Assembly (NCBI GenBank): GCA_020831625.1
Contig: JAFIGD010000007.1
Span: 1-64,000, forward strand
DNA length: 64,000 bases
Origin: Verrucomicrobiota bacterium
Lineage (GTDB): Bacteria > Verrucomicrobiota > Kiritimatiellia > SS1-B-03-39 > UBA6053
Direction of reading: 5' to 3'
Shown here: piece by piece, positions 13,389 through 57,958 of the stretch
Layout: each line of letters opens with the position of its first letter
Numbering within the stretch: position 1 is the first letter of the stretch
Position numbers and translations under genes: made by a program
The notes under the pieces: generated by a model
What the model saw: only the letters and a program-made list of their open reading frames with translations
Databases searched by the model: none
What the model was told of the DNA's origin: nothing

Positions 13389-13457
13389 AACCTGTTTGTG
13401 AAAGCAAGTCGAAATCAGGGCGTGTGCCCGTATGGATCTTCTGGTGAGTGAAATCGT

Positions 13458-13511
13458 CGCACATGTGTGCGGTTTGTTTACCTTGCCGCAGGTTGGAACT
13501 GTCCGTAGTAT
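13458..13511 (+). promoter_or_regulatory. Class-1 operator-promoter of the 13577 gene, shared with the LacI gene
   Basis: Perfect arms CGCACA-TG-TGTGCG (13458-13471), 10 bases, CTTGCC (13482-13487), 18 bases, TAGTAT (13506-13511). The site lies between the divergent LacI-type regulator and the beta-helix gene, the usual arrangement for a regulator and its own operator. Confidence 0.65.
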
Positions 13512-13576
13512 GCGGAAAACAATGCGGGGGAATCCGCCATCGTATGTCCGCCACAACCCAAAACAATAAGCGATTC

Positions 13577-15289: not shown

Positions 15290-15324
15290 TGATCCTGACG
15301 AATTTCCATCCCGTACAGGAGCTT

Positions 15325-15378
15325 CGCATATGTGTGCGGAAATTTTCTCTTGTCCGATTCAAGCCTTCTGCGTATAGT
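15325..15378 (+). promoter_or_regulatory. Class-1 operator-promoter of the second PEP-CTERM gene
   Basis: CGCATA-TG-TGTGCG (15325-15338) has one arm mismatch. It is followed after 10 bases by CTTGTC (15349-15354), 18 bases and TATAGT (15373-15378). A half-site CGCACA lies just after the -10 box, near 15384. Confidence 0.65.
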
Positions 15379-15472
15379 AAATTCGCACATCAGACGGGTT
15401 CCGACGATTCCCGCCGAACACAGTCAAACAACTCCAGGCAAACACAACCCCCAACTGAGAAGAGGAAAACCA

Positions 15473-16351: not shown

Positions 16352-16387
16352 CCAAATCGCCATCCCAGCAATCCCAAAGTTCATTCC

Positions 16388-16425
16388 GGGGTCCCGGCAT
16401 TATTCCGCCGGGACCCCGTTTTTTC
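16388..16425 (+). terminator. Strong Rho-independent terminator after the PEP-CTERM gene
   Basis: A perfect 12-bp stem (CGGGGTCCCGGC at 16388-16399 with GCCGGGACCCCG at 16408-16419), an 8-base loop and six T residues (16420-16425). It closes the PEP-CTERM transcription unit. Confidence 0.92.
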
Positions 16426-16444
16426 ATGCCCGTTCCACGTCCCC

Positions 16445-18154: not shown

Positions 18155-18157
18155 AAG

Positions 18158-18724
18158 GTGGAGGAAACCGTTCGTCTGGAGGGCGTCCCGTCGCCGGAGG
18201 AACGGCATCCGGATCCCGGGATCTCCGAACGGGCCGCGACCCTGGCCCGCGCCCCGGCAGATCATCCGGACTGGAAAAAAATTGAACTGCCGGGTATGTT
18301 CAAAGGAGAGCCGGTGGACTGGGAGCGGTATGACGGGGAGGTCGTTTTGCATCGGGTCTTTGACCTGCGGGAGGAATTGCTCGGACAGGATTTGCTTTTG
18401 TCTTTGGGTGCGATTGATGATTATGACACCACTTGGATCAACGGGGAGGTGGCGGGGTCGAAATCCGACGCGAACGCATGGCGGACCCCTCGGTTTTACC
18501 GGGTGCCGGCCGGCCTCTTGAACGCGCGGGGAAATGAAATCGTCATCCGGGTATGGGACGCGTTCGGCGGCGGCGGGTTTTCGGGAATCGCGGGGGATTT
18601 GTGGATTGGTCCCGAGGACAGCGCGGTTGAGTTGACCGTGCCCGATACACCGGTTCGCCGGGAACCGCCGTTTCCCTCACTCCTGGAATGGCAGCGGTCA
18701 GTTTATTCGGACCTGAAACCGTGA
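18158..18724 (+). pseudogene. Galactose-binding-like C-terminal part of the 16445 gene
   Basis: These 188 codons follow the TGA at 18152-18154 in the same frame, one codon later, beginning with a possible GTG. They encode a jelly-roll of the GH2/sialate-esterase carbohydrate-binding type: LLLSLGAIDDYDTTWINGE, then VPAGLLNARGNEIVIRVWD and GGGGFSG. The same module is built into the C-terminal part of the 47929 protein (LVLSLGAVDDFDDTFWNG). The end, FPSLLEWQRS, matches the C-terminus of the 13577 protein. Together this indicates that the two pieces were a single protein. Alternatives are TGA read-through, a GTG restart coupled to the upstream stop, or a sequencing error. Confidence 0.65.
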
Positions 18725-18916
18725 GATATTTGCTGTGAATCCACACCGCCTCATGGATTGACTGCCTGGTTGACCACCGGTCCACCCGGATCGGGTATCT
18801 CGATCAGTCCCGGTCCCGGGTCACGCAATCAGCGTTCACTTCAGATTGACCTGTCTGCCCGGAGTTTATAGGGAAACGTATACTTGGGCAGGTCCCATGC
18901 GAACGTTTCATGCCTC

Positions 18917-24584: not shown

Positions 24585-25433
24585 CTATGACGCGCACATT
24601 GCCCGCAGGCGTCGTCCGTATTCGACATAGGTCTCAAACCGGCTTCCGCAATCCGGATGAACACCGATATGGGGTTCGATGGAAATGAACCCGTCGTAGC
24701 CCGATGCGGACAGAGTCTCCAGCGTCTCGCGAACCCGGCAAACGCCCTGGCCCGGCCAGAGGTGCGTGGGCGTCACCCCCTCCGCGCGTCCGGTGTGGTC
24801 TTTGATGTGCACATGCCGGATATGGGGCATGGCGGCCGTGAACCATTCGGCCATGCGGGCGGGTCCGGGGTGATGGGAGGCCGGGTTTCCCGTGTCGTAC
24901 ACTGCGCACACCGACGGGAGATTGACCAGTTCAAAGAATTTCGAAAAGTTCTCCGGGGTTGCGGCGGCCCAACCCGAACAGTTCTCGACCAGAAGGAACA
25001 TTCCCGCATCGGCGGCGCGCCGTCCCAGTTCACTCAATCGTTTCACGGACTCCGACTGCCAGTCGGCCTCTGAAAGACAGTGGTTGGGATAGGTCATCAC
25101 CCGGATTTGGTCGGTGCCCAGGATGGACGCGTTCCGCATGGCGGACGAGAGTTCCTCCAGAGATTGTTCAAAAGGGTCGGTGATCTTTCGCGCCCCGTTT
25201 CCGACGGGGGATCCCAGGCCCGCCACCCTCATCCCGGCATCAGCAATGGCGGCGGCGAGTTCACGGCACCGCGCCTCCGGGAGAAGCGCCACCTCCTCCC
25301 CGTTCAGCTTGCGGAGTTCCAAATGCGTCCAGCCGAGTTCCCGATGGGCGCGGATTTGTTCCTCAATCGTTGCCCCGGCTTCGTCGGATATTCCGGTAAG
25401 CTTAAAATTCATATGATGTTTCGTTTTTGTCAT
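24585..25433 (-). CDS. Sugar phosphate isomerase/epimerase-like TIM barrel protein
   Basis: The 282-residue cytoplasmic protein belongs to the xylose-isomerase-like (AP endonuclease 2) TIM barrel fold. The four metal-ligand regions are present in order: FLLVENCSGW (Glu), CAVYDTGNPASHH (Asp/His), HIRHVHIKDH (His) and GFISIEPHIG (Glu). The family includes hydroxypyruvate isomerases, tagatose epimerases, inosose dehydratases and keto-sugar isomerases, so the exact reaction is open. In this setting, conversion of a released sugar or uronate into a central intermediate is plausible. The start could also be the ATG at 25412, which is closer to the conserved sequence. It lies 80 bases downstream of the Verru_Chthon accessory gene on the same strand and could belong to that unit. 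Confidence 0.8.
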   Translation of the reverse strand: MTKTKHHMNFKLTGISDEAGATIEEQIRAHRELGWTHLELRKLNGEEVALLPEARCRELAAAIADAGMRVAGLGSPVGNGARKITDPFEQSLEELSSAMRNASILGTDQIRVMTYPNHCLSEADWQSESVKRLSELGRRAADAGMFLLVENCSGWAAATPENFSKFFELVNLPSVCAVYDTGNPASHHPGPARMAEWFTAAMPHIRHVHIKDHTGRAEGVTPTHLWPGQGVCRVRETLETLSASGYDGFISIEPHIGVHPDCGSRFETYVEYGRRLRAMCAS

Positions 25434-25513: not shown

Positions 25514-26221
25514 TTACCTTTCAGTTTCTTCAACAGGATCCCCGAATTCTTTGGCCTCGGAAGGGGTTTCGGTGATGACTCTCAGGCGGACCGCTCTTTT
25601 TTTGGGGGTATACTCCGTTACAAAGCACAAATATCTTGCCTGTTCGTAATGGCGGTTGCTGGTGGTGAAGGCGAGGATCAATTCCTCGTTATGTCTGGCG
25701 ACGATTTGGATGGCACATTTCGCTCTATCCGCCGTGTCCGGTTCAATTGCTTTGATTTCCTGAGGGTTTAAACTGAATTTTTCAGTGTCGTGCAACACCA
25801 CAAGCTGTCTTTCGGTCAAATTGAAATATTTGTACGTTCCAAAATCGAAAGTCTCAAGGGAATCATCCATTACAAAGAAGCTTGGGACGTCATCCCCGTC
25901 CGATACCAGAAGTAAAATCCGGGTGGACTTCCCCTGAACGGGATATTGCCAGATGGGGCGATAGGTCTGCTCCCCTTCTATCACCTCTCCCGGTGTGAAA
26001 AGCTCCAGAGGCTGCTCACCCTTGTAGCGGTATAGCGGAGAGCGGGCAATATTCTGCACTGGAATCCGGTGAAACGCACCCTCCTGATCGATAAAGCCGA
26101 TCGGAATATTCGGAGGACGGCCGATTCCCAGGACGGTGAATTCCACACTGCCCGCAAACGAAAAATGGGATGCAAGCAGCATCCCGACAAAAACCAGTCG
26201 TTTCATATAATCATGTTTCAT
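25514..26221 (-). CDS. Secreted accessory protein of Verru_Chthon cassette A (copy 1)
   Basis: This 235-residue protein has a signal peptide (RLVFVGMLLASHFSFAGS) and should be exported. It is beta-rich with no enzyme motif. It shares features with the 55142 product: an early beta segment, a YRYKGEQPLELF element corresponding to YTYKGPIPLRFY there, an LLLVSDGDD/LLLFDRPRG strand, and a LVVLHDT/LAVYNTT element. Both lie directly downstream of a Verru_Chthon cassette A gene (3 and 9 bases away), so the pair is a conserved unit whose products probably work together at the envelope. A start at the internal ATG 26206 would give a tidier signal peptide. Function unknown. Confidence 0.6.
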   Translation of the reverse strand: MKHDYMKRLVFVGMLLASHFSFAGSVEFTVLGIGRPPNIPIGFIDQEGAFHRIPVQNIARSPLYRYKGEQPLELFTPGEVIEGEQTYRPIWQYPVQGKSTRILLLVSDGDDVPSFFVMDDSLETFDFGTYKYFNLTERQLVVLHDTEKFSLNPQEIKAIEPDTADRAKCAIQIVARHNEELILAFTTSNRHYEQARYLCFVTEYTPKKRAVRLRVITETPSEAKEFGDPVEETER

Positions 26222-26224
26222 AAA

Positions 26225-29200
26225 TTAAATGTCATCCTCTGAAAGCCAACGAAAGCGCACGATGCGGTATTTCCGACCGAAGGTTTGGGCGGTTTGGTCT
26301 GAGGGGTTCAATTCCGCCGCCGGATCATTCGGATCGGCCGCACCGGGTTCCAGCGGTTCTGGTGTACGCTGTACCACGGCTTCACACCAGGCGGCAGCCT
26401 CCGTTTTACCCGTGGATTCATTCAACACCTCCCCATAAGCACGAACCACAAAGGTATCGGAACGCACCGCGATGATCGATCCTATTTTCTGGAGAACATC
26501 TCCCTGCAGCACAAATCCAGCCGCGCCGGATCCGGTGGAACCGTAGAGGTTGTCGGAGTAGGGAACGACTGCGGATGCACCCAGCCTGTAATTCGAAGAA
26601 TTCTTCCATGCCTCGGGAGCCAGCTTAAATTCATCATACATGTCATTAATCGATGTCTCATCAATGGCACGCTGCAGCAGTCCGGCCTTCGCTTCCGGCG
26701 GCACTGTGGACGGCAGGGGGGCGGGCAGCTCCCGATTCACGAACTCGGACAGAGAAAGGACCGGTCTTCCGAGGCGGCTTGCCCGCTCCTGAATCAGTTC
26801 CACAACCTTCTCCGCCAAAATGTTGACCTGATCGTCCGTCAGCGAGGCCATCCCTCCCCAGGCATCGTGGTCATAATAATCATTTCCTCTGTCGGCCGCC
26901 GTCGGCCGGGTCAGGCGGCCGATTCGGGTGTTCTGATGATCCGCAGGAAATCCGGCATCCGCCTGCTGAAGTCCCGAATCCTCGTAATAAAACGGGGTCC
27001 CTTTGTCGGAGCCCAACACGGCGGCCCATGCTTTTGCGGAAACGGAGTTTACATTAAACATGCCCTCGGCGTTTAAACCGGCCGCTGCGGTACGGAAATC
27101 CGACAGACGGCTCTGGAGGTCTTGAATGGGGATTCCCTTCGCCGGGACATGGCGGGGATTCCTCAAAGTGCCCGAGCCGTCGACAAAGTCCTGCACCACT
27201 TGATCGATCGTGCGATTGACCGCGTCCCCATAACTGCTGGATTCGGGACTGATGGAGGAAAAGAAATACCCGTCCCACAACGTTTCATTCGCCAGATACG
27301 AAATGTCATAGGCCAACCGTGCCTGGGATCCACTTACCAATGCCTGCATCGTCTTGTCAGCCCGTACCCAGGGACTGGCAAAGGAATTTGAGATGGCCAG
27401 TGAGGGTTGATACCCCAACTTCGCGATATTCGCATGCTGGAGCTGGCCGAGAGACAGCAGGGGCGATGTGGGCAGTTCCAGCATGACCGGATAGGATGTG
27501 GAAGGCTCTTTCGAAGGTCCCCAATAAGCACGTCCTCCATCGTTCTGAATCACATCCGTAAAGCCGGCCGGCTTACGCCACCAAGGCATAATCCCCGGGG
27601 TGGCATCATTAAACGTTTTGCTGGCAACTGTTTGCCTCTGTTGAGTGACCGCGAGCGGATTCATGCGGCTGTAGGGGGGGAAAGCACGGCTCCCGCCGGA
27701 ACGGCCGGCTTCATAATCCCCCGGGGTTAAATTGAGCACCTCCCAGGCATAAAGCGGTGTGGGTATGGCCCATTGGTCCGCACGCCGTGTCAATGACCCC
27801 GGATTGTTGATCGTGTCTTGCCCCCCTTCCACGAAGGCGGCGGAAATTTGGCCTTCCATGCGGGACATGACACTTCCCATATAGTCCCGGTGGAAGCCGG
27901 GGTCATCGTCCATCAAGGCCTCGTCTCCAGTGGAATCTATAGCCAACAAGGCCCCTGCACGAAGACTCAGATTATGTGAAAAAGTGATTTCATCATTGTC
28001 ATCGTAGGGAATCGTAACCCATTTTGCCGCATATTGGTTAGTCGGGTTGTCCATGTTCTTTATCAGAGCAATCAAAGGAAAATAAAATCCGCCGGCCGGG
28101 TCATATCCCTCTTTCAGCTTTACCTGACCCTTGACCAGAGGGAGGGGGTCGCCATGTACATCGGGGAGAACAGATAATATCTTCACCTCCCCGGGGGCAA
28201 ATTCCCCCATGGAACCCTGAAAATCCACCTCCAGATTCATGAATCTCGAGTAGGGCTGCGCCCCGTCGAATGCCGGATCCTCAATACTGCGTAAATCCCA
28301 GAGCCTTGCTTGGAATCCCTGTAAAGATGTCCCCAAATCGTGCTTATAATTCTGTGTATAATCGTTATTCGTATCGGGCATATAAGGTTCATGAGGGTAA
28401 TGGCCTGCCGGGAAGCGCTGGTTGGAGGAAAATTCCAGCATAATCGAAGTGATCTGTGTAATGGAAATCGCCATTCTCCGGACCTTGAGGTTCACATTGT
28501 ATGGGTTGTGCACCACAAAGACCGGATTCATGATAATCCGGCCCTCCAGCTTGCCGGCATCATTCCAATGCGGGGCGGTCTGAAAGCTGACCAATAGAAA
28601 CTGCCGTACGACAACCGGACCGATGTTGGGGCGCTCAAACTGGTAAACTTCCGGCATCTCAATCGTTACGTTACCATGGGACTTTCTTACCCCGTTGGGG
28701 GTCGTCTCGGGATCCTGATCGGCGCTAAACATGCTGCTGACATTCCAAAATTCATGCATGGCACTTCCCCGGGGAACTCCCGAAGCGGTGGCGAGTTCCA
28801 GCATCTGCTGGTGATTCGGGAAATACCCATGCGCGATATAGCCGGGAGTCGCTCCACTGCGGTCCATATTCTTATAAATATTATAGTAATGCCGCAGGAC
28901 CTGCCAGGTTGGACCATACAGCGTCGGGCCAATATTATTTGAAATCCGCTCAGAGGACGGAACCTCTTTCCGGAAAAGGAAGGAAACCGGACGCCCCCAG
29001 TCGATCGTTTTTCCTCCCCATACCCCACTCTGGTTCCAGATGTAATCTCCATTTTCATCCAGGGGCGGGAACGGACTCCCCGTGCCGAACCAGGAGGTGT
29101 CGAAATCGTTGTCGCTCATCTCGAAGGCCAGCGACAGATCCCGTTTAAGCCCGCCGTTCCTGGCGTCGGTCAGAACACCCGAACTGACGGTGCTCAGGTC

Positions 29201-30049
29201 GAAAAAAAACTTTTTCGCAGCAGAATTTCCGGGATCATTCAGTGCCAGGGGCACATCTGCGATCGAATTCATACGCTGAAGTATCCCGGCATCCAAATCC
29301 GAATACGCCTCCAAATCCGTCAGCAACCAGGTTCCTGACCGGGAGGGAGCGGTCAATACGGAGTTCACCACCGTTTCAGTACTGGAGTCTTTCCGCTCAT
29401 CTGCCAGATTGATCCGGGCCTTCACCCCCTCGTCCCCCACCCACCAGGCAAAATAATGTGAAAGCGCTGAAGATCCGCCGGAGTACAACGGGACCTTGGG
29501 GACCCGCACCTCAAGGGGATTGGGATTTGTCGGATCCACATCCGCATCCGCACTGCCGCTGCCGACCAGGAGAATTTCGTCCCCGCCCGACGGAGTGGTT
29601 CGTATCGCGTCCCGGGCTGCGGCATTTGAGTGGCTCAAATCGGCGCCCGAAGCCAGCCAGCCAAGAAAGTGGCCGTACCCGGGATTTGGGGCTCCCGATG
29701 GCAGAGTTTCCGCCGAGTCCCAGACCCCGGTCAGGTAACGTCGATCCAGCGAGGTGGGGTTCGTCGCCGCTTTCGAAAAAAGATCTGCCGTGGCGGTCAC
29801 GCGTTGATCCGCCCCGGCATGCTTCTGCAGCTCACTGATCGCCACCACCACCCCCACTTTGGCATTTGCCCGGGCCCTGGCCAGGTTCACCCTCAGCTGA
29901 CTTTCCCTCAACGCCAAGCGCACCATGACCACAAAACTCAGCACGATGACCAGTAATATGGCAACCACCATGATTGTGAGGAGCAGTGCTGATCCGTTTT
30001 TCCGTGTTGAACGCTGTTTATTCTTTGTCTTGCAATTGTGTTGATTCAT
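26225..30049 (-). CDS. Verru_Chthon cassette protein A (PilX-like giant pseudopilin), copy 1
   Basis: This 1274-residue protein has an N-terminal PilX-like membrane anchor (GSALLLTIMVVAILLVIVLS, then VVMVRLALRESQ) preceded by a basic cytoplasmic tail. The motif ARARANAKVGVVVAISELQKHAG follows immediately, as in the family. The large exported part is Asn/Gly-rich without known catalytic motifs. The C-terminus (FVVRAYGE, AAAWCEAVVQRTPEP, RYRIVRFRWLSEDD) is matched almost motif for motif by the 52139 product. Family members are confined to Verrucomicrobia and close relatives and are believed to be part of a pseudopilus-like export or surface apparatus; the usual partner genes B, C and D are not next to this copy. 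The ATG at 30049 was chosen because it places the basic tail and anchor correctly and follows a GGAG. A class-1 operator lies about 85 bases upstream. Confidence 0.85.
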   Translation of the reverse strand: MNQHNCKTKNKQRSTRKNGSALLLTIMVVAILLVIVLSFVVMVRLALRESQLRVNLARARANAKVGVVVAISELQKHAGADQRVTATADLFSKAATNPTSLDRRYLTGVWDSAETLPSGAPNPGYGHFLGWLASGADLSHSNAAARDAIRTTPSGGDEILLVGSGSADADVDPTNPNPLEVRVPKVPLYSGGSSALSHYFAWWVGDEGVKARINLADERKDSSTETVVNSVLTAPSRSGTWLLTDLEAYSDLDAGILQRMNSIADVPLALNDPGNSAAKKFFFDLSTVSSGVLTDARNGGLKRDLSLAFEMSDNDFDTSWFGTGSPFPPLDENGDYIWNQSGVWGGKTIDWGRPVSFLFRKEVPSSERISNNIGPTLYGPTWQVLRHYYNIYKNMDRSGATPGYIAHGYFPNHQQMLELATASGVPRGSAMHEFWNVSSMFSADQDPETTPNGVRKSHGNVTIEMPEVYQFERPNIGPVVVRQFLLVSFQTAPHWNDAGKLEGRIIMNPVFVVHNPYNVNLKVRRMAISITQITSIMLEFSSNQRFPAGHYPHEPYMPDTNNDYTQNYKHDLGTSLQGFQARLWDLRSIEDPAFDGAQPYSRFMNLEVDFQGSMGEFAPGEVKILSVLPDVHGDPLPLVKGQVKLKEGYDPAGGFYFPLIALIKNMDNPTNQYAAKWVTIPYDDNDEITFSHNLSLRAGALLAIDSTGDEALMDDDPGFHRDYMGSVMSRMEGQISAAFVEGGQDTINNPGSLTRRADQWAIPTPLYAWEVLNLTPGDYEAGRSGGSRAFPPYSRMNPLAVTQQRQTVASKTFNDATPGIMPWWRKPAGFTDVIQNDGGRAYWGPSKEPSTSYPVMLELPTSPLLSLGQLQHANIAKLGYQPSLAISNSFASPWVRADKTMQALVSGSQARLAYDISYLANETLWDGYFFSSISPESSSYGDAVNRTIDQVVQDFVDGSGTLRNPRHVPAKGIPIQDLQSRLSDFRTAAAGLNAEGMFNVNSVSAKAWAAVLGSDKGTPFYYEDSGLQQADAGFPADHQNTRIGRLTRPTAADRGNDYYDHDAWGGMASLTDDQVNILAEKVVELIQERASRLGRPVLSLSEFVNRELPAPLPSTVPPEAKAGLLQRAIDETSINDMYDEFKLAPEAWKNSSNYRLGASAVVPYSDNLYGSTGSGAAGFVLQGDVLQKIGSIIAVRSDTFVVRAYGEVLNESTGKTEAAAWCEAVVQRTPEPLEPGAADPNDPAAELNPSDQTAQTFGRKYRIVRFRWLSEDDI

Positions 30050-30160: not shown

Positions 30161-32638
30161 TCAATCAAGTTGACGGCTGGTTTCGGTGCCGTCGTAATCG
30201 ATCGTAACGACGGGGACCGATTCTGCCCCTGTGTATCCCGCTCCAGGCGTGATGCGCAGAAGGTGTAGTTTGCGATGAGGGCATATACCCGCGAATGCTC
30301 CCCGACGTTCAGAGACTTTCAGAGTGGCTTCTTTGTCGTTCCAATTAAGGTCGAAAGCGGCGAAAGCACCTTTTTCATAATTGTAATTATCTCCTTCGTC
30401 TTCGTACACGTTGAAGGACGCATCTGCACCAGGATAGACCGCGAGCGTCCAGTCGCCGTGCGGATCGGCGTCGGCGAATTGAACGGCGGGACCGAAGGGG
30501 ACGATGCTGCCGGCGCGGACATAGACGGGCAGCGTTTCCAGGGGCGCGTCGGCGGTGATGGTTTGGCCGCCCTCATATCGCTCGCCGGTCCAGAAGTCGA
30601 CCCAGTCACAGCCTGCAGGCAGGTAGACCTCGCGGGTTTTGGCGACGCCCTCCAGGGGACGGGATCCGGACTCATAATACATGGGTTCGGTGACCGGGCA
30701 GACCATGAACGCGGGACCGAACATAAACTGGTCGGTAACCTGCAGGGCCTTTGGATCCGACCTGAAATCGAAGGCCAGCATGCGGAACAGGGTATAGTGC
30801 TCGTTGGCCTCCCGGGCGGCGGTGGCGTAGATATAGGGCAGCAGCCGGTACCGCAGGTGGAGAAATTTGACCAGGGTGTCATAAAATTGCGTTCCCGGTT
30901 CCCCGAAACGCCAGACCTCCCGGGGGGCGTCCATGCCGTGCGAACGGAACATGGGCAGGAACGCGCCGAACTGAAACCAGCGGGTGTAGAGTTCGCGGTA
31001 GCCGAGATCCCCGCATCCGTCGGGATAGCGGCTTTGCCGGAACCAGCGCGGGGCGGGTTTGACAAAGAATCCCCCGATATCGAAGGTCCAGCGCGGGTTG
31101 CCGGTGACGGTGAAGTTCAGCCCGTCCGCGATTTGGTTGCGGAGCCGTTTCCAGTTGGCGTCGATGTCCCCGGACCAGGTGATGGTCCCGTATCGTTGCT
31201 GGCCGGGATAGGCGGAGCGGTTGAGATTGACCACCCGCTTGGCATCGGTGGTTTTCCGCTGGCCCTCGTAGATGCATTTTGATTGCTCCAGAGAGTATGC
31301 GTTCAACAATCCGGGATCGATAAATTTTTTGGTTTCCGCGGTGTTCAACTGCAGCCGGATTTCCGGTTCATATTTGACGGTTCCCTGCCAGTCGCCTTTG
31401 AAAGGTTCGGTCGCATCGCTCCACCAGGCATCGACCCCGTGTTGGAGGTAGGCCTGTTCCGCCTGTCTCCAGTAGATGTCGCGGGCGCAGGGTGAGAAAA
31501 CGTTCAAGGTGGACTGGTCGCCCAGGAGTTCACCCGCTTCGCGCAGTTCCTCGAGATCGGGGTTGGCGTCGCCGCGCATGTTCGGCCAGAGCGAGACCAT
31601 GAGCCGGGTGTTCGCGGCATGGAGATCCTCACACAGTTGCCGCGGGTCCGGGAAGCGTTCGGCATCGAAGGTTTTAAATCCCCACTGTCCCTCCGGCCAG
31701 GTGCACCAGTCCTGGACGATGCAGTCCAGGGGCAGTTCACGCCTGCGGTATTCTCCGACCACCTCCAGCAGCTCTTGTTGGCTTTTGTACCGCTCCTTGG
31801 ACTGGATATAACCGTAGGTCCAGCGCGGAAACAGGGGCGGGGCGCCGGTCAGATGGCGAATGCCGGCGACAATGCGGTCGAAATCGGGACCGAGGATAAA
31901 GTAGTAGTCGAGTTCCGGCACGACCTCGGTCCAGAGATAGGAACCATATTGGTTGTCGCGGAAGATGCACAGTGAAGTGCTGTCCAGCAGGCACCCGTAG
32001 CCCCGGCTGGAGACCAGGACCGGCATGGCGACTTTTAAATTGTGCTGATAGAGGTGTTGGGTGCCGCCCCGGTAATTGAGGACACCCTCCTCGTGCTGGC
32101 CGAGGCCGAAGATGGCTTCATCCTCCGAAAATTCAAAACGCAGTTTGGCGGAGTAGGCCATGCGGTCGAAAACCTGTTTGCCTCCGCTGGCGCGGGTTTT
32201 TTCGCCGTCCTCGGTTTTCTCCGACGCGAATTTGGTGTCCGTGCCCCATTCCGTGCGGTTCACGGTAATCTCCTCGAGGGTTTTCCCGCCTTCCGCCGGT
32301 TCCCGGGTCAGGAGGTTCCCATCTTTGTCGAACCATGTGAACGCTCCGGTGTCCCGGTTGATCTCGAGGCGGATTTCGGAGGTGGACAACACCAGCGAGT
32401 TTTCCTCCTCCAGCACTTGCAGCCGTCCCTTTGTCTCGGTCGGCAGGACGATCAAGCTTTCCCGGGAAGCGAACTCCGCCTCCACGGTGTGGCGGACCCG
32501 GATGATGGCATCGGTGACAGCGATGATGGACAATTGATTGGCGGCTTTGTTGACCAGGGTGTGCGTGGACAGTTCAACGACGATTTCACCGGGGCTGACT
32601 TGCCGCCAGCGTTGGACAGGAGTGGAGAGTGGATTCAT
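30161..32638 (-). CDS. GH31 family glycoside hydrolase (alpha-xylosidase/alpha-glucosidase-like)
   Basis: The 825-residue protein lacks a signal peptide. It has the N-terminal beta-sandwich (about 1-250, with FGLGQHEEGVLNYRG), a TIM barrel and C-terminal sandwiches. The nucleophile Asp lies in DAWWSDATEPF (about residue 410) and the acid/base Asp in TITWSGDIDANW (about residue 491), both intact. The WWSDATEP form is common in alpha-xylosidases and relatives. The start at 32638 is 7 bases after the stop of the second GH31 gene, so the two are co-transcribed. The class-1 operator at 30134 lies downstream of its stop and serves the next gene. Confidence 0.88.
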   Translation of the reverse strand: MNPLSTPVQRWRQVSPGEIVVELSTHTLVNKAANQLSIIAVTDAIIRVRHTVEAEFASRESLIVLPTETKGRLQVLEEENSLVLSTSEIRLEINRDTGAFTWFDKDGNLLTREPAEGGKTLEEITVNRTEWGTDTKFASEKTEDGEKTRASGGKQVFDRMAYSAKLRFEFSEDEAIFGLGQHEEGVLNYRGGTQHLYQHNLKVAMPVLVSSRGYGCLLDSTSLCIFRDNQYGSYLWTEVVPELDYYFILGPDFDRIVAGIRHLTGAPPLFPRWTYGYIQSKERYKSQQELLEVVGEYRRRELPLDCIVQDWCTWPEGQWGFKTFDAERFPDPRQLCEDLHAANTRLMVSLWPNMRGDANPDLEELREAGELLGDQSTLNVFSPCARDIYWRQAEQAYLQHGVDAWWSDATEPFKGDWQGTVKYEPEIRLQLNTAETKKFIDPGLLNAYSLEQSKCIYEGQRKTTDAKRVVNLNRSAYPGQQRYGTITWSGDIDANWKRLRNQIADGLNFTVTGNPRWTFDIGGFFVKPAPRWFRQSRYPDGCGDLGYRELYTRWFQFGAFLPMFRSHGMDAPREVWRFGEPGTQFYDTLVKFLHLRYRLLPYIYATAAREANEHYTLFRMLAFDFRSDPKALQVTDQFMFGPAFMVCPVTEPMYYESGSRPLEGVAKTREVYLPAGCDWVDFWTGERYEGGQTITADAPLETLPVYVRAGSIVPFGPAVQFADADPHGDWTLAVYPGADASFNVYEDEGDNYNYEKGAFAAFDLNWNDKEATLKVSERRGAFAGICPHRKLHLLRITPGAGYTGAESVPVVTIDYDGTETSRQLD

Positions 32639-32645
32639 ATATTTC

Positions 32646-34865
32646 TCAATTGGTGGATGTTTCAAACAAGATTTTAACGTCAACAGCGGATTGCAAAGAT
32701 GCAGGATTGAATTCGATGATATTCGTGGCGGTCTCCTTTTCATACTCAAAAGCGGACTGGCATCCGGGGAAAAGCACTTCCTGCGCCTTCGGGGAGCAAG
32801 GCAGTTCGATCCGGCATCTTTTTATAGGGGTTTGACCGGGGAATCCGCCTTTTTGCGGGCCGATTTTGATAATCACTTCGTTCTCACGTTCTTCGTAGGC
32901 CAATTCCATTTGGGTGTATTCGCCATTAAGATACCCCTCGGTTTGTCCATCGTCCTGATAGAGACTCGACGTGTCGGACGCGCCGGGGTAACAGCGGATG
33001 ATCAGGGTTTCCAGGGGAGTGGTGGTCATTCGCGGCGAACAGGGTTGCATGGGGATGGGTGTCCCGGCCCGCGCGAACAGGGGAATGTCATCGATTCCGA
33101 CCTCCATTTCCCGCTCACAGTCGCCCTCGATGCATTCGCCCGTGAAGAAATTGAACCATTTTCCCGCGGGGAACCAGATTTTCAGTTTCACCGTGCCCGT
33201 GTCGTGGTTCAGGGGAGTCACGACAGGCGCCACCAGAAGATCGTTTCCGAGCATATACTGGAGATCGTATTCATAGGCCCGTTCATTTTCCGGATGGTCC
33301 AGATACATAGGACGCAGCAGCGGGAGGCTGTGGTCGTGGCATTGCCGGACGGCGGTGTACAGGTACGGCATCAATTGCGCACGCAGGCGAAAGGCGTCCC
33401 GCATCGCCTTTTCCTCCGTATCGCCCCACAGCCAGGGCCTGCGGTCCAGATGGGTGCCGGTGGAATGAAGCCGCAGCGCGGCGGACAGGGCTCCGAACTG
33501 AACCCATCGCACGTAGAGTTCCGGGTCGCGTTCGCCATGGAAACCACCAATGTCATGGGCCCAGAAGAAACAGCCCGAATTTCCGGATGCGAGCGTGAAG
33601 CGAATTTCGAAGGGCAGCATCTCCCAGTTGGCGGCGGCGTCGCCGGAAAAGTGGATGGGATGGCGGTGATCCCCCCAGCCGCCCCAGCGGCTGAAGCCCT
33701 GTCCGCGCCGTCCGTCTTTTTGTGAATGGTGATAGTACAGGTGATTCAACCAGGGCAGGTGAGGGAGGTAAGGCACGCCTCTCACATAGGGATAGATATA
33801 ATCCTGCTGCCAGTCCAGCCACCAGAAATCAACCCCCTGCTTCTCCACCGGCGCGTGCGCGGATGTGAAAAAGGCCTTCATGTAGTCCCGGTCGCCGGCA
33901 TCGAAGGGGATGCAGGTACGGTTCCGCTCCCGGGAAGTTTGAAGGTGTTTCAGAAACAGCGGGTAATTTTCCTCGTGCGCTCTCATGCCGTCGCAGGGAT
34001 GGTCGTTGAGCACGGTGAAAATGCCGTCCTCTTTGAATTCACGCAGCAGTTTCTCCGGCTCCGGAATCAATTCCCGGTTCCAGGTGTAACCGGTCCAGCC
34101 CAGATTCCGCGCGTGGCCGTAGCCAAGGCGGGCGTCCCGGGTGGTGTGCCAATCCATGTCCATCACCATGATGTCGAGCGGAAAATCGTGTTCGCGGTAG
34201 CCGTCGGCCAATTGACGGAAATCATCCGCGCTGTAGGGATACCAGCGACAATACCAGGAGCCGAACACATGCTTCCTGGGCAAAGGAACTTTCCCGGAAA
34301 GGGTGGTCAGATCGACCAGAGCGGATTTGTAATCAAGACCATACCCGAAGAAATACCAGTCCAGTCCCGTTCTCCCTTTTTGAGGCCGCTGCTCGATCCA
34401 CTGGTCCACCAGAATCGGTTTGGCCGAGTCGTCGATCAGGTGCCACCCATCCCGGGCCAGCAGTCCCTCCGGCAGGGGCACGGCCTTCGACACCTTGTCC
34501 AAAGTCGCCATGGCGCCCCCCAGGTTCGCGGTGCTCGCCATGCCCGGCACCCATTCGCCCGACTCTCCGCCCCGTTCAAAACGTATGTGGAGGTTGTCTT
34601 TGTGAAAGGGTTTGCCGTCTTCCCGGTAAGTGAGGGTCATGCGGTCTGTCCGAATGACCAGGGTGTCACCCTGGTCGATAAACGCTGCGTCAGGGCATCG
34701 CGCATGACGATTGGCGGCGAAAAGGGTGGGCTCGTCAATGAAATTTCCGTGCTCACAATATTCCATTCGCACGCAAGAAGGGGTGATCACGGTAAAACGG
34801 GCGGCGTGTTTTAAGCGCACCGTTTTCTGATCGGTCGGTGCGGGGGAGAGTGACAGTGTGTTCAT
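32646..34865 (-). CDS. GH31 family glycoside hydrolase, second type
   Basis: The 739-residue enzyme has no signal peptide. The barrel motifs are DIMVMDMDWHTTRDARLGYG, nucleophile region VDFWWLDWQQD (Asp about residue 351) and acid/base region HFSGDAAANW (about residue 406). The LDWQQ variant differs from the SDATEP of the neighbouring GH31, placing it in another GH31 branch, so the pair probably removes two different alpha-linked sugars. It lies between the large beta-helix gene (20 bases upstream) and the first GH31 gene, in one minus-strand operon starting at the promoter near 37779-37832. Confidence 0.87.
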   Translation of the reverse strand: MNTLSLSPAPTDQKTVRLKHAARFTVITPSCVRMEYCEHGNFIDEPTLFAANRHARCPDAAFIDQGDTLVIRTDRMTLTYREDGKPFHKDNLHIRFERGGESGEWVPGMASTANLGGAMATLDKVSKAVPLPEGLLARDGWHLIDDSAKPILVDQWIEQRPQKGRTGLDWYFFGYGLDYKSALVDLTTLSGKVPLPRKHVFGSWYCRWYPYSADDFRQLADGYREHDFPLDIMVMDMDWHTTRDARLGYGHARNLGWTGYTWNRELIPEPEKLLREFKEDGIFTVLNDHPCDGMRAHEENYPLFLKHLQTSRERNRTCIPFDAGDRDYMKAFFTSAHAPVEKQGVDFWWLDWQQDYIYPYVRGVPYLPHLPWLNHLYYHHSQKDGRRGQGFSRWGGWGDHRHPIHFSGDAAANWEMLPFEIRFTLASGNSGCFFWAHDIGGFHGERDPELYVRWVQFGALSAALRLHSTGTHLDRRPWLWGDTEEKAMRDAFRLRAQLMPYLYTAVRQCHDHSLPLLRPMYLDHPENERAYEYDLQYMLGNDLLVAPVVTPLNHDTGTVKLKIWFPAGKWFNFFTGECIEGDCEREMEVGIDDIPLFARAGTPIPMQPCSPRMTTTPLETLIIRCYPGASDTSSLYQDDGQTEGYLNGEYTQMELAYEERENEVIIKIGPQKGGFPGQTPIKRCRIELPCSPKAQEVLFPGCQSAFEYEKETATNIIEFNPASLQSAVDVKILFETSTN

Positions 34866-52138: not shown

Positions 52139-55132
52139 ATGAAAAAGACTTCCCGTTCCGGTTCCGCACTCTTGGTCACTATCCTGGTGGTCAGTCTTTT
52201 GCTGGTGGTCACGCTCGCGATGGTGGCGGTAGTGCGTATGGAATTGCGTACAGTTTCAACTCATCATGATCACCTCATCGCCCGTGCAAACGCCAAACTG
52301 GGCGCGGAGATAGCCATCGCCCGCCTGCAGGAGCTGGCGGGACGGGACGGACGGATCACGGCGACCTCCGCTCTGTACAACACGGCCCTGGGGCAGGATC
52401 GATGGACAGGGGTCTGGGATGCCTCAACAGAGGACTTTTTAGGGTGGCTGGTTTCCGGTGAAAATATGAACCCCGCGGTTTCTGCGGGGGACGGGCCGGA
52501 TGCCCCCCCCGTTTGGCTGGTGGACCGGGGCAACCGGAACACGTACGGTGTGGTGGTACAATCGGTGTCGACCGGGACGGGTCGGTATGCCTTTTGGGTC
52601 AGCGATGAAAACACCAAGGCGGGTTTGCCGCCGGCGGGTACGAAGCCTATGATCGAATTTCCGCAGAGGCGTGGTTTGGCATGGGGAGGGTGGGGAAGCG
52701 TGGCCGATCCCGCCGAGGAGGGAAGGCTTCGAATTGCCGCCCAGCGCGGCACGCTATCCCCCGCCATGCCTTTGTTGGATGACTTGGGAATGGGGACGGA
52801 GGTGATGGACAGTGCCGAGGGACGGGAAAGACTTCAACGTATGGTTTCCGAAGCGCAAATCCCTCTGTTAGGTGGTAATCTCACTCCCGGGCAGGATTGG
52901 TTCCATGACCTGACTTTGTATTCCCGCAGCTTACTGGTGGATGTTCCCCGTGACAGCCTGCGATACGATTTCACGGCCCGGCAAGTTCCCTCTGGTATCG
53001 GCTATCCCGGAAATGGCCGGGTCCAGGGAGGCGCGCTGTTTACAGCCTGGTCTCAAAAAGGAGGCTGGTTAACCGCTCCTGTGGACGGGGGGGCGGTTTT
53101 TACCCGGATCACGCCTTCCGAACATTTACTGACGGAGGTCTCCATCCGATTTTCTGTTTTCGCATTGCCTCCCGAAGGCGGAGAGACTGAAACCCCTTTG
53201 GTGGTCCGGTACCAAGTCCAGGCCGAAACATGGAATTCTTCCCACATGCAGTTTGGCTTCCACACCCAAAGTAACGCACTGGCACTGCGGTTCCGGGGGT
53301 TGCCACCCTTGAGGGTGTCAGGAGTGGATGGGAATGGAATTCCTTTTTCGCTTCCCCCCATTAACCTGGAACATTTGGTTAGCCGGGTGGACGGTTCGGA
53401 GGATGTTGAAGTCGCCCATCTTATTCCTTTTAATCCGCAATCGCCGTTTTTCGGAACGTTGCTTTACCGGTCGGGCGAGATCCGCCTTGCTGTCTCCGCC
53501 GATGGCGGCAACGACCTCACCACTTGGAATCGGGAGCGGGGAGGAAAGCTTCGGCGGGTCTTTCCGGTTCGTGACAGCGAGCTGGGCGCGGCAGGCTGGA
53601 TCGAACATGTTTTTGAGGACCGTATGGTTCCAACCACCGCATCCAGTCTGAACGTCGCCCTGGAAGGAACCGACACGATGAAAGTCTACGTGAGCACAGG
53701 TCAAAATTTAAATCCCGGCAGTGATTTATTTTTTAACAATCCTGATGACCTTGCCACGGTCATTCAGGAATTCCAGCCCCAACCGAGCTTTCAGGGAGGC
53801 GACATCGATAAACCGCGGGATGACGAATCCTTCGTCTTTGGATTCGGGGTGGAATTGAGGAAGAACCTGTCGGAACTCCTTCAAGTTCAGGGTATTCGCA
53901 AGTCTGAGTACCCCCCGGAAATGTTTGAACCGCTTGGTGCTGCGGACACATACTCCCCTGATCCGTTTGAAAACCGTGCCGGGATTTTTCAGACCACTGA
54001 TGGACGTGATTATTTTTATCGAACCTCCCAGGGTGTGTCCATTTTTGACGGGTACGTGGATTTTCCTGTTTCAGTCGGAGGCTTGCGGAACATCGAACTT
54101 GTGCGGGATCAACGGATTGGGAGTCCGTGGCCAATCGACGAAGCGGATCAGGGTGTACCTTCAGACAACTGGGTGTTTGACCGCGGCTTCTACTCCACAC
54201 TGCCTGAGCGGAATGCTGATACCCCGTCTCCTCATGTTTATTATACCGAGCAGCTGAAGGGGAGGCGACTTGCCAATTCATACCTTGAACTTTATGAGGA
54301 TGAAAATCTGCCACTGGCTCCGGAACACGCCCGCATGCAAAATATTTCACTGGGTCTGGGAGATCCGAGGGAGGCGGCTCTGCATCTCTGGGTTCAGCAT
54401 GGATTCAATCTGAACAGCCTGAATGTTCGGGCCTGGGAAAGTCTCTTCCGGGCGCACCGACTTTCCGATTGGACCTTCGCGGAGGGTCAAATGGATTTGG
54501 ATGCGGTGTTTTTCCGTTTCCCCGGCTCGGCTCAGAATGCCGAGGAGGTCTACTATGAACAGGAACTGCGGAACTTGGATGAGGAGGGAATACGTCAAAT
54601 GGCGTTCCGGCAGCCCTTTCGCGGGCTGCTGACCGAAGGCGGGGTCAACGAGCCCCGGCTATTGGCGGAGCGGTTGGTGGCCCGATTGCGGGCCCGCAGC
54701 CGGCCACTGTTCTCCGTTCAGGAGTTTGTGGACGAGGGAATCCTGGCGGATTTACTGGACCCGGACAAACCTGGTGCGGTCAGCAGCATTAATCAGGTGT
54801 TTGCGGACTATAAACAAGCCCCCATTTACCTCTCCCAAGCGGATATCATGGAGGCCCTGGCGCCTCTGGCTACCGTTCGGGGCGACACCTTCGTGGTAAG
54901 GGGATATGGTCAAAGCGGCCCGTCCCCGGATTCCAGGGGTGCGAGAGCCTATTGTGAAGTCATTGTTCAGCGCATACCCACCCCTATGGAGGTGCCGGCC
55001 GGATTGGAAACCTTGGAGGATTTCAGGAACATTAAACGCACGCAGTGGCACAACCTGTCCGCCGCCGGTCATCCCTTCGGCCGGCGTTTTAAAGTAATCG
55101 GCTTTCGCTGGTTGTCTGAAGATGAAATTTAA
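52139..55132 (+). CDS. Verru_Chthon cassette protein A (PilX-like giant pseudopilin), copy 2
   Basis: A 997-residue paralogue of 26225-30049. The N-terminus has a basic tail (MKKTSRSGS) and anchor (ALLVTILVVSLLLVVTLAMV), then RANAKLGAEIAIARLQELAG, the family signature region. The C-terminal motifs FVVRGYGQSG, AYCEVIVQRIPTPME and FKVIGFRWLSEDE parallel the other copy, although the central part has diverged widely, suggesting recognition of different partners. It is followed after 9 bases by the accessory gene, exactly as in copy 1. The ATG at 52139 was chosen because it begins the expected basic tail. It may be co-transcribed with the beta-helix gene upstream and with the genes up to 63346. 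Confidence 0.87.
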   Translation: MKKTSRSGSALLVTILVVSLLLVVTLAMVAVVRMELRTVSTHHDHLIARANAKLGAEIAIARLQELAGRDGRITATSALYNTALGQDRWTGVWDASTEDFLGWLVSGENMNPAVSAGDGPDAPPVWLVDRGNRNTYGVVVQSVSTGTGRYAFWVSDENTKAGLPPAGTKPMIEFPQRRGLAWGGWGSVADPAEEGRLRIAAQRGTLSPAMPLLDDLGMGTEVMDSAEGRERLQRMVSEAQIPLLGGNLTPGQDWFHDLTLYSRSLLVDVPRDSLRYDFTARQVPSGIGYPGNGRVQGGALFTAWSQKGGWLTAPVDGGAVFTRITPSEHLLTEVSIRFSVFALPPEGGETETPLVVRYQVQAETWNSSHMQFGFHTQSNALALRFRGLPPLRVSGVDGNGIPFSLPPINLEHLVSRVDGSEDVEVAHLIPFNPQSPFFGTLLYRSGEIRLAVSADGGNDLTTWNRERGGKLRRVFPVRDSELGAAGWIEHVFEDRMVPTTASSLNVALEGTDTMKVYVSTGQNLNPGSDLFFNNPDDLATVIQEFQPQPSFQGGDIDKPRDDESFVFGFGVELRKNLSELLQVQGIRKSEYPPEMFEPLGAADTYSPDPFENRAGIFQTTDGRDYFYRTSQGVSIFDGYVDFPVSVGGLRNIELVRDQRIGSPWPIDEADQGVPSDNWVFDRGFYSTLPERNADTPSPHVYYTEQLKGRRLANSYLELYEDENLPLAPEHARMQNISLGLGDPREAALHLWVQHGFNLNSLNVRAWESLFRAHRLSDWTFAEGQMDLDAVFFRFPGSAQNAEEVYYEQELRNLDEEGIRQMAFRQPFRGLLTEGGVNEPRLLAERLVARLRARSRPLFSVQEFVDEGILADLLDPDKPGAVSSINQVFADYKQAPIYLSQADIMEALAPLATVRGDTFVVRGYGQSGPSPDSRGARAYCEVIVQRIPTPMEVPAGLETLEDFRNIKRTQWHNLSAAGHPFGRRFKVIGFRWLSEDEI

Positions 55133-55141
55133 GGAACATCC

Positions 55142-55939
55142 ATGATTTTTAAGTTAAACGTTTTTCTGTTGATATTTGGTGGTTTGGCCTGGCTGCCTGC
55201 ACCCGTCCGGTTGGCGGCCCAACAGTTGGATGGAGAAAATATCGCGGAGTTCACCTTCACCACCGCTTTGGTGAGTCGGTCACCCGGCCAACTTTTTTAT
55301 CGGCCTGATGCGGAGGAGGATCTTGTTCCGGTGAAGTTCAACCGCATCTATCGATCCGAACTCTACACGTACAAGGGGCCGATTCCTCTGCGGTTTTACC
55401 GGGAGTCGGGCCGGGATGACCAGGGAAATCCCCAATACGAAGTCGTCGCGTCTGTCTCCGGCATGACCGGCGGATCCCGTTGGCTGTTGTTGTTTGATCG
55501 TCCACGCGGCTCTGAAAGTTGGCGGGTGGATGTGATTCCAGATGATATAATAAATTTACCCGTGAACACCTTGGCGGTTTATAACACCACTTCGGAGCCA
55601 TTGGCGGCGATGGTGGGGGACCGTGTGATCCCCCTGCCGGTTGGAATGAGCCGGCCGGTGGATATTAGCAGGTTTCAGGAACAGCACAAGATCCTGCAAA
55701 CGACTGTGGAGGTGTCGGACATGGTCTATGAAACCCGTGAAGTGGAGACGGTGAACCGCGCGGTCACCCTCATCGTCGTTTATCAAACCCCGGAACAGGT
55801 CCACCGCCTGTATGAATCCAGTCAGATGGTGTCGCCCGGGCATCGGTATCTGATGCTGTTCCTGCCCCCGATTGCCGAAGGCTCCACCCGTTTCCGCAGC
55901 AAGATGTTGAGCGAGAGAGTTGAGGAACCGCAACCTTGA
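55142..55939 (+). CDS. Secreted accessory protein of Verru_Chthon cassette A (copy 2)
   Basis: A 265-residue exported protein with signal peptide (LNVFLLIFGGLAWLPAP, then VRLAA). AAGGAA just before the ATG gives a good ribosome-binding site. The mature part is beta-rich with YTYKGPIPLRFY, WLLLFDRPRG and NTLAVYNTTSEPL, the same sequence of elements as the 25514 product. No enzyme signature. It is placed 9 bases after Verru_Chthon A and 6 bases before the metallophosphoesterase, so it joins these genes in one unit. It probably stabilises or displays the giant pseudopilin (inference). Confidence 0.6.
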   Translation: MIFKLNVFLLIFGGLAWLPAPVRLAAQQLDGENIAEFTFTTALVSRSPGQLFYRPDAEEDLVPVKFNRIYRSELYTYKGPIPLRFYRESGRDDQGNPQYEVVASVSGMTGGSRWLLLFDRPRGSESWRVDVIPDDIINLPVNTLAVYNTTSEPLAAMVGDRVIPLPVGMSRPVDISRFQEQHKILQTTVEVSDMVYETREVETVNRAVTLIVVYQTPEQVHRLYESSQMVSPGHRYLMLFLPPIAEGSTRFRSKMLSERVEEPQP

Positions 55940-55945: not shown

Positions 55946-57958
55946 ATGACCGATAAGCACCTCCAGAGGGGCGCCTGGGAATGGACGTCCACATATCCGG
56001 ACGGCTCCCGCGGTCCGGCGGCGTCACGGCTGGCCGATGCCCTGGCACCGGTTCCGTTGCCTTGGGTCCGTTGTTCGCGTTGGCCCCGCGCATGGACTGT
56101 GTTCGCGACGGAGGAACCCAGGCGGATTCTGCGCGCCTGCGGGCTGAAATACGCGGTTGAGGCGCCCCCCCACACGGATCACATCCCGGAAGAACTGGAG
56201 CATTCGGGCAGAACCTGGCGGCGGCGGGTGTTGGAGGCGGATGAGCGGGGCGTTTTGGATCTTGCCGACGCGTTTGGACAGGCGTTTGACGGACGGACGG
56301 CGTTTCTTTATGCGGAACTTCCGTTGGACGCGCCTGTGGAGCTCCGGGTGCACGCCGGCGCGGATTACCGAATGGAATGGTGGATCGACGGGCAACGAGG
56401 TTATGACACTTTGAAAGGCGGTAACGGTTCGCCGGTGACGGGCAGATCGCATGCGTTTGATCTGAACCTGGAGGCGGGCCGTCATTTGTTCATGGTTCGG
56501 GTGGTGAGCGGGAGCGGAGGATGGGGTTTTGCCAGTGAAGCTTTGCAGCGGGTCGGCGGGGAGCTGTCGGAGTCTTTCGGTCTGGAGGCGCGACGGCGTT
56601 TTGTGGTGGAGGATCCGGAGCAGCTCATCTCCCTGACCCTGGAAGACGGGAACGATCCCGGACTTCGCCTGAACGGCGAACCTGTTCCTGTTCCCTTGCC
56701 AGGAATGCGTTACCGGGATATCCCCGGCATCCCGGTCTCGTGTCTGCGTCCGGGAGAAAATCTATTGAGCCGTTCGTGGCGTCCGGAAGAGGTGTGGCAA
56801 GTGCGGGAGGACTTGGCGCTTGAAGTGTTCTCCGCGACCGCCGCCGGGGAGCTGCCCCGCGTTTCCGGCACACCCCGGGGCGTCGGGCCGCGGGAGGTTT
56901 GTCTGCAAACCGCGCCGGTGTTGGGATGGGCCACAGCGTCAAGCCTTACCATGGCCTGCCGCACCAACGCCCCGGTGTCCCTTCACGTGGACATCGACGG
57001 ACATCGCCATCACTCCGCCACCGGCCTGGTTCATCATTTTGTTTGCGACGGTTTGCAGGGCGGAACCGACTATGCCTACCGGGTGAGTTGGACGGATGAC
57101 TCCGGTGACGAGACGGTCTTGTTCAAGGGACAGGCCAAAACCCTGCCGGAGGGTGCGGATCATTTTTTTGTGTTCATGGGAGACGTGTATCCGTTTGACG
57201 ACACCTGGGAACGGGTCTCCGGGGCGGTGGTTGACGAGGGGCCGGACGCGGTTTTTTTCAGTGGCGACATGGTCTTGGACGGCAGTCAGGATGCGGAATG
57301 GGACGAGGGATTTTTTCATCCGGCTCAAACGCTGTTGGCCTCCGTTCCGTTCTACGCGGTCATTGGCAACCATGAAAACAACGGTGCCTTGTTTGATCAA
57401 CTTTTTCTCACCCCCGAAGTTCGAAACTGGGAACAACGCATCGGCGCCATGAACATCATCGGGATTGACGGCACCCGGGACTGGACTCCGGGAGGCGCGG
57501 ATCACGAGTGGCTGGAGGAGGTGCTGCGCTCCAGCGATGCGCCCTTTGTGTTTCTCATGACCCACTATCCGCCCTTTTCCTCCGGCGGACACGGGCGGGT
57601 GGATGAGGCGGGCCGTCCCAAGGAGGAGCCGATCCGGCAGGCGCGGGATTTTCTGATGCCGTTGCTGACCCGGCACGCGGTGACCGCCGTGGTGAGCGGA
57701 CATGATCACTTTTACGAGCGCTCCGAACTTCCGGGCGGGGTCACCGGACTGGTCTCCGCCGGTGCGGGCTCCCGTCTGTATTCTAAAACCACCAATCCAC
57801 TTCAAAATCCCCACTCCGTCTTTTGGCAGAGCGATTACCATTTTTGCCGGGTCCGGGTGAGGCCGGAGACCTGCACGCTGCAAGCGGTTCTGTTGGACGG
57901 CAGCGTGATCGATGAGCGCACCTGGGAACCTCGGAATTGCCCGAACGGAAAGCATTGA
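55946..57958 (+). CDS. Calcineurin-like metallophosphoesterase (purple-acid-phosphatase-like layout)
   Basis: A 670-residue protein. The C-terminal third has the complete dinuclear metal set: FVFMGDVYP (about residue 410), AVFFSGDMVLDGS (about 437), VIGNHENNG (about 473), MTHYPPFSSGG (about 538) and VVSGHDHFYERSE (about 584). About 330-400 is a fibronectin-III-like domain (HHFVCDGLQGGTDYAYRVSW), as precedes the catalytic part of purple acid phosphatases. The first ~300 residues look like beta-sandwich carbohydrate-binding modules (MEWWIDGQRGYDT). No signal peptide is visible: the protein starts MTDKHLQRGAWEW. It is therefore predicted to be cytoplasmic unless the start is further upstream. 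Six bases separate it from the accessory gene and 34 from the beta-propeller gene. Confidence 0.78.
   Translation: MTDKHLQRGAWEWTSTYPDGSRGPAASRLADALAPVPLPWVRCSRWPRAWTVFATEEPRRILRACGLKYAVEAPPHTDHIPEELEHSGRTWRRRVLEADERGVLDLADAFGQAFDGRTAFLYAELPLDAPVELRVHAGADYRMEWWIDGQRGYDTLKGGNGSPVTGRSHAFDLNLEAGRHLFMVRVVSGSGGWGFASEALQRVGGELSESFGLEARRRFVVEDPEQLISLTLEDGNDPGLRLNGEPVPVPLPGMRYRDIPGIPVSCLRPGENLLSRSWRPEEVWQVREDLALEVFSATAAGELPRVSGTPRGVGPREVCLQTAPVLGWATASSLTMACRTNAPVSLHVDIDGHRHHSATGLVHHFVCDGLQGGTDYAYRVSWTDDSGDETVLFKGQAKTLPEGADHFFVFMGDVYPFDDTWERVSGAVVDEGPDAVFFSGDMVLDGSQDAEWDEGFFHPAQTLLASVPFYAVIGNHENNGALFDQLFLTPEVRNWEQRIGAMNIIGIDGTRDWTPGGADHEWLEEVLRSSDAPFVFLMTHYPPFSSGGHGRVDEAGRPKEEPIRQARDFLMPLLTRHAVTAVVSGHDHFYERSELPGGVTGLVSAGAGSRLYSKTTNPLQNPHSVFWQSDYHFCRVRVRPETCTLQAVLLDGSVIDERTWEPRNCPNGKH

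Follow-up and report, generated by a model that had tools for sequence, protein, structure and literature searches.

Giant GspK-like prepilins and a small beta-sandwich partner: a candidate two-gene tip unit in Verrucomicrobiota

A 64,000-nucleotide stretch of DNA from a Verrucomicrobiota bacterium, the whole of which was analysed and is called the window here, holds two copies of a gene pair in which a very large prepilin-like protein, termed A, is followed by a small protein, termed the partner. The locus raises the question of what A is, whether the partner belongs to it, and what such a pair might do. The initial annotation had described two copies with the same gene order, close spacing (3 nt between A and partner in unit 1, 9 nt in unit 2), matched ends and divergent centres, and the coordinates (Table 1) and alignments agree with this description. 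Using BLASTP, the A proteins of copy 1 and copy 2 were found to align at both ends (C-terminal block, E 2e-21; N-terminal block, E 3e-16), with scarcely any alignment of their centres. Both have the motif GSALL..T close to the N-terminus and FGR..RWLSED.I at the C-terminal end, and the two partners show a weak pairwise likeness only (E 3e-4). The standard cassette partners B, C and D stand beside neither copy, as first described; no pilin-like gene is found among the adjacent genes.

Table 1. Features of the two window units and their neighbours (window positions), and head segments in the genus g41 (positions within each locus)
Feature	Position	Strand	Remarks
A gene, copy 1	26225..30049	-	1274 aa; prepilin of GspK-like type carrying a giant insertion (fold deduced from the copy 2 model)
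Copy 1 N-terminal pilin head	29411..30049	-	213 aa; cleavage-type motif KNG/SALLLT (slash at the cleavage position); +5 not Glu
Copy 1 inserted centre	27116..29410	-	765 aa; almost unalignable between paralogues
Copy 1 C-terminal core	26225..27115	-	end is FGRKYRIVRFRWLSEDDI
Partner gene, copy 1	25514..26221	-	235 aa; signal-like stretch at N-terminus
A gene, copy 2	52139..55132	+	997 aa; AF2 model matches XcpX/GspK
Copy 2 N-terminal pilin head	52139..52633	+	residues 1-165; long helix 9-67 in the model
Copy 2 inserted centre	52634..54325	+	residues 166-729
Copy 2 C-terminal core	54326..55132	+	helices, then beta hairpin; FGRRFKVIGFRWLSEDEI
Partner gene, copy 2	55142..55939	+	265 aa; AF2 model with two tandem beta-sandwich domains
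Neighbour, glycoside hydrolase family 31	30161..32749	-	
Neighbour, xylose-isomerase-like TIM barrel	24585..25433	-	
Laminin-G / weak beta-helix protein, 1409 aa	47869..52098	+	40 nt upstream of copy 2
Calcineurin-like phosphoesterase	55946..57958	+	6 nt downstream of partner 2
Apparently invertible 1.2-kb head segment between two A bodies	L110 3587-10731; L111 3951-11127; L117 4307-11485; L119 4367-11533; L120 3861-11380; L127 1-4160		

The identity of A was approached through an AF2 model of the copy 2 protein, built on a 43-row alignment, with a mean pLDDT of 67.8, a pTM of 0.74 and a centre often below 50. In this model, an N-terminal helix of 59 residues is accompanied by strands close to both ends. 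Using VIA-align, it was matched to XcpX (6utu_C; Z 13.2, rmsd 3.1, 229 of 261 residues), XcpK (9a1f_T; Z 12.7, rmsd 3.2, 260 of 295 residues) and GspK (3ci0_K; Z 12.2, rmsd 3.5, 247 of 280 residues). These GspK-family matches span model residues 9-997 and the next chain reaches Z 4.2; beta-sandwich rows matching the centre, at Z 4.2 or less, were left uninterpreted. Judged by these matches, the model of copy 2 has the GspK fold, which is defined by a long helix, a split pilin sheet and an alpha domain. Foldseek on the whole A model returned nothing at E 0.001 or below, so the GspK match draws on one aligner and a model with a weak centre. A is called GspK-like, and is not filed as GspK, because no sequence profile scores over its cut-off: the two window copies reach 16.1 and 13.5 bits with NF037980, where the cut-off is 130, and A has no T2SSK match. 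Pfam and PDB-chain sequence searches with A and with the partner gave nothing useful.

All 18 A proteins of the genome that holds the window (its own genome, described below) and 43/43 aligned A proteins carry the cleavage-type Gly and have a residue other than Glu at +5. A GspK-like protein of 334 aa is encoded elsewhere in the same genome, and a profile comparison of A with this protein covers the head only. The family f32 has GspK-sized relatives of A, of 411-446 aa, which have the ends of A but lack the insertion; these give weak matches to the GspK profile NF037980 (best 2.5e-8) and have the end motif in common with A. With the model as its basis, A is read as a GspK-like tip pilin in which an insertion of about 550-1030 residues lies between the N-terminal head and the C-terminal core. 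In the cited passages of PMC8179133, GspK sits at the tip of the T2SS and a bulky modular pilin is modelled only at a tip. A resembles GspK, XcpX and PilK in the modelled fold of its head and C-terminal core, in the Gly cleavage-type motif without Glu at +5, and in an additional domain set into the pilin sheet (described for GspK in the same passages; PMC8179133). It differs from them in length, with 997-1556 aa in the own genome compared with about 300, in having no GspI/J neighbours, and in its 18 paralogues, each with a private, putatively secreted partner. The modular pilins PilB and PilC of S. sanguinis likewise carry a large functional module on a pilin and are expected at the tip, as far as the cited passages go (PMC8179133); the insertion of A, however, lies between head and C-terminal core, is far larger and holds no Pfam domain.

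The partner belongs to no Pfam family that could be found. The AF2 model of the copy 2 partner (pLDDT 80.3, pTM 0.74) consists of two tandem beta-sandwich domains, and its best fold matches are PepT extracellular domains (Foldseek E 7e-6 to 2e-5 in the top rows). The PepT2 extracellular domain is matched at Z 11.1-11.2 over 177 residues; a single domain of the model matches the HGSNAT luminal domain and AlgF at about Z 8-9, and transthyretin is also among the fold matches. These model-based matches are taken as a common beta-sandwich arrangement, from which no function is read. The partner N-termini are signal-like by eye, and a lipobox is absent in 18/18 partners of the own genome.

The genome that holds the window (4.89 Mb, 111 contigs) was searched with TIGR02600, giving 22 matches, none of them over the cut-off. 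From these, 18 distinct long A genes were read, 16 of them beyond the window pair, all with a prepilin head and a C-terminal end in a variant of GR.+.I..F.+L. Every one of the 18 has a partner directly downstream on the same strand, 221-295 aa long and with a signal-like start. The gap between A and partner ranges from -25 to +18 nt over the 18 loci, a range that depends on the starts chosen (one of which is a TTG). Since 18/18 A genes carry a partner, the pairing is not chance. A leave-one-out profile made from 17 partners recovers the remaining one in 18/18 cases, at E 1.2e-18 or better. Pilin-like genes (B, C, D or GspH/I/J) were looked for by eye beside the 18 loci and none was found except at L024, where two A-partner pairs stand in tandem (8348-18842, minus strand). 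In another locus (L026, just upstream of 12693, minus strand), the head of A is preceded by none of ATG, GTG and TTG, and the upstream frame is a short tandem repeat (TRHSSLD).

The partner profile, run against the own genome, gave the 18 paired partners, one solo partner and one marginal match (E 0.1). The solo partner, of 241 aa, lies on contig C3 (G000:C3; L229 4708-5433, minus strand) with no A neighbour, flanked by genes that by eye resemble those for pseudouridine synthase and SAICAR synthetase. An explanation for this copy was sought and none was found.

In other species, 88 A open frames were collected in 80 loci, among the matches listed (80 of 518 relatives). Seven of these frames, with no complete C-terminus or less than 600 nt of room, were dropped, and 81 were counted. 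Among the matches listed, a partner match lies within 1200 nt in 65 of the 81 A genes, mostly within 50 nt or overlapping, and in the remaining 16 no partner was seen by eye. A recurrent minimal two-gene unit, as first proposed, is thus borne out by 18/18 pairs in the own genome and 65/81 elsewhere among the matches listed. The same counts contradict the initial claim that A is always paired: 16/81 A genes elsewhere among the matches listed are unpaired, and so are 5/5 of the short A forms (411-446 aa) without the insertion. Of 194 sampled genomes of the phylum, 53 have the A family (E 1e-5) and 27, all of them within those 53, have partner matches. Of the 26 genomes with A and no partner match, 16 belong to the genus g41 and 8 to the family f32. 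The genus g41 has a diverged partner behind one A body, which was missed by the partner profile, and most A copies in this Akkermansia-like genus were read without a partner directly behind.

Two side observations concern the distribution of A. At L109 (3331-11179, minus strand), two tandem A genes with near-identical ends and no partner adjoin a gene that by eye is hemC-like. Within the class of the window, the family is represented among the matches only by the window's own family (f1, 6 genomes), and the other carriers belong to other classes; the class distribution of A carriers hints at transfer or loss.

To relate the partner to the parts of A, the divergence of each was compared over pairs. 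Over the 18 own pairs, partner divergence correlates with that of the inserted centre at rho 0.62, of the C core at 0.43 and of the N core at 0.33; with both cores controlled for, the centre keeps a partial rho of 0.48, and the C core, controlled for the rest, has one of -0.01. In other species, 58 pairs were available, 17 of which were dropped for unrecognisable block motifs. For the 41 that remained, among the matches listed, the values are 0.44 (centre), 0.29 (C core) and 0.30 (N core), with partials of 0.27, 0.04 and 0.19, respectively. With local alignment scores and length controls, the partial is 0.31 for the centre and 0.25 for the C core, and the lead of the centre shrinks. By these sequence comparisons, the partner co-diverges with the unit, and probably most with the insertion; for a putative contact between A and partner, this counts as indirect support.

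The pair finds a parallel in two known systems. According to the cited parts of two reports, the minor tip pilins TcpB and CofB bind the cognate secreted proteins TcpF and CofJ, without cross-reaction between the pairs (PMC9565799, PMC10191384). The likeness, in the same parts of these reports, would be that a tip-type minor pilin and a cognate Sec-exported protein are encoded together and pair specifically (PMC9565799, PMC10191384). The A units differ in consisting of two genes without other adjacent pilus genes, and in occurring as many pairs per genome. By analogy, we infer that A and its partner may work in the manner of TcpB-TcpF or CofB-CofJ, as a minor tip pilin and its cognate secreted protein. 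The A-partner pairs look like a multiplied version of the TcpB/CofB principle on a GspK-like pilin; the likeness is one of principle, without a claim of homology.

The proposed mechanism is as follows. A would be a minor prepilin of the GspK/XcpX kind that forms the tip of a type 4 filament, either a T2SS pseudopilus or a type IV pilus. The own genome gives 6 secretin matches, 11 T2SSE matches and 1 prepilin peptidase match, and the peptidase would cut A before SALL. The missing Glu at +5 and the bulk of the insertion would confine A to the tip. The partner would leave by the Sec route, fold into its two tandem beta-sandwiches and bind the insertion of its own A, and the filament would display the complex or push it through the secretin, in the way suggested for TcpB-TcpF and CofB-CofJ. 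The paralogous pairs would be interchangeable tips, through which one or a few filament machines might gain different surface or substrate specificities, each tip having a putative ligand, and tip pairs would often adjoin the genes for a particular glycan. Of the surface fibre or export tip suggested at first, the export tip fits the match of the A model to the tip pseudopilin GspK/XcpX. That an enlarged prepilin of this kind displays or pushes out a private beta-sandwich partner, with paralogous pairs as interchangeable tips, is a reading for which the chances of being right and wrong seem to us about equal.

Alternatively, the partner could be a periplasmic chaperone or assembly factor dedicated to folding the giant insertion of A, and would then stay outside the displayed structure. 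The order of A then partner with touching or overlapping ends, the tracking of the inserted centre by partner divergence, and the existence of short A forms without a partner would all agree with such a role. The size of the partner (two beta-sandwich domains, about 230 aa) is presumably reminiscent of periplasmic chaperones and counts in the same direction. Some full-length A genes, however, have no partner, and the fold matches are to PepT, HGSNAT, AlgF and transthyretin with no PapD-type chaperone among the rows listed, a point that excludes nothing. A chaperone role is considered unlikely.

The setting of the units bears on another possibility, that A is a substrate-choosing T2SS tip, each copy of which recruits one glycan-degrading enzyme of its own locus with the partner as adaptor. 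The initial annotation had the units embedded in glycan loci, and this is often so: in 9 of the 12 loci scanned, out of 18, a neighbour is GH31, GH42, GH43, an alginate lyase or a beta-helix-type protein, a fraction biased upward by the choice of neighbours by eye. These glycosidases, lyases and beta-helix proteins, the GspK fold of the A model and the presence of several secretins and T2SSE ATPases in the genome speak for the substrate-choosing tip. The further expectation that copy number follows the number of glycan loci was not supported when sulfatases were used as a proxy. Partner count and sulfatase count show no clear relation over 27 genomes (Spearman 0.33, p 0.09; partial value 0.25 with genome size controlled) or over the 14 genomes with at least 5 copies (Spearman 0.09). 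Moreover, one genome has 18 partners but 7 sulfatase candidates, and some pairs adjoin what by eye are housekeeping genes. Recruitment of one enzyme per locus is judged distinctly improbable.

The family name Verru_Chthon cassette A, given to the gene at first, was rejected. Against the NCBIfam profile TIGR02600, the window A proteins score 14.5 and 23.2 bits, more than 300 bits under the cut-off of 332.3, and the match is limited to the first 62 positions. True Verru_Chthon_A proteins over the cut-off occur in 4 of the 194 sampled genomes, none of which is among the 53 with the A family at E 1e-5. A profile-profile comparison with five true members (hhalign) covers the first 70 columns only, with a probability of 94.5, so that detected homology ends after the head. 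At the canonical cassette L115, three prepilin genes follow its A, where the A units have the beta-sandwich partner, and no partner match is found. That the unit is a true Verru_Chthon cassette after loss of B, C and D is very improbable on these scores, separate genomes and gene contents, even though A and the cassette protein have a similar head, a similar length and a phylum in common. As an observation apart, an 823-aa protein with a PEP-CTERM-like end precedes the true cassette at L115 (1618-10245) and three prepilins follow, which resembles a full tip set of K plus H/I/J next to a surface protein.

The genus g41, which its family and the inverton motif, among others, suggest is Akkermansia-like, has a different arrangement of A. 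Its A locus consists of two bodies in opposite orientation, and the spacer between them, of 1211-1220 nt, contains the pilin head together with the region upstream of it. When the spacer was inverted by script, the head joined the other body in frame in 6/6 loci tried, including L111 with one frameshifted body, L120 where both frames overrun the usual end, and L127, which is cut by contig ends. The 1.2-kb segment is found in both orientations among g41 genomes: the head is on the side of the partner in L110 and, judged from the transporter opposite, in L111, and on the side of the transporter in L117, L119 and L120. The segment edges are CCGAATTTAGAATCCG / CGGATTCTAAATTCGG, exact on both sides in 4/6 loci (L111, L119, L120, L127), and in L110 and L117 one edge deviates from the repeat. 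These sequences suggest that in g41 the head-bearing DNA of A may be switched, by inversion, from one of two alternative bodies to the other.

The published Akkermansia inverton motif, in the cited part of its report, is CGGATT..AATCCG (PMC13343947), and the 16-bp inverted repeat at the head-segment edges fits it. The cases published in that part are capsule-locus and promoter-like switches (PMC13343947), whereas in g41 a 1.2-kb coding head would move between two protein bodies. Scanning of 110 other loci, including the window, gave no head inversion with a spacer of about 1.2 kb. Inverted repeats of at least 150 nt occur in 2 of these 110, a 152-nt palindrome-like stretch at L185 and a 470-nt pair of 70% identity at L191. 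In the literature searched, outside which most subscription journals lie, the exact phrase 'Verru_Chthon cassette' was not found, and titles and abstracts held no description of a Verrucomicrobiota pseudopilin expansion or of an Akkermansia head switch. A wider proposal, offered tentatively and thought somewhat doubtful as a whole, is that up to about 20 giant GspK-like tips may serve one or a few filament machines, each with a private partner on its fast-evolving insertion, and that g41 may pick the body by site-specific DNA inversion of a shared head.

For the large A family, which has no Pfam domain and is present in 53 of the 194 phylum genomes sampled, these results supply both a cognate partner and a putative identity, that of giant GspK-like tip pilins. 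The biology of the T2SS and of pili has yet to explain how a single filament machine can handle many substrates or surfaces, and a genome with 18 natural tip-partner pairs would be a direct test bed for this question of filament specificity. Should the head switch in Akkermansia prove real, the pilus tip of an important gut commensal would be phase-variable.
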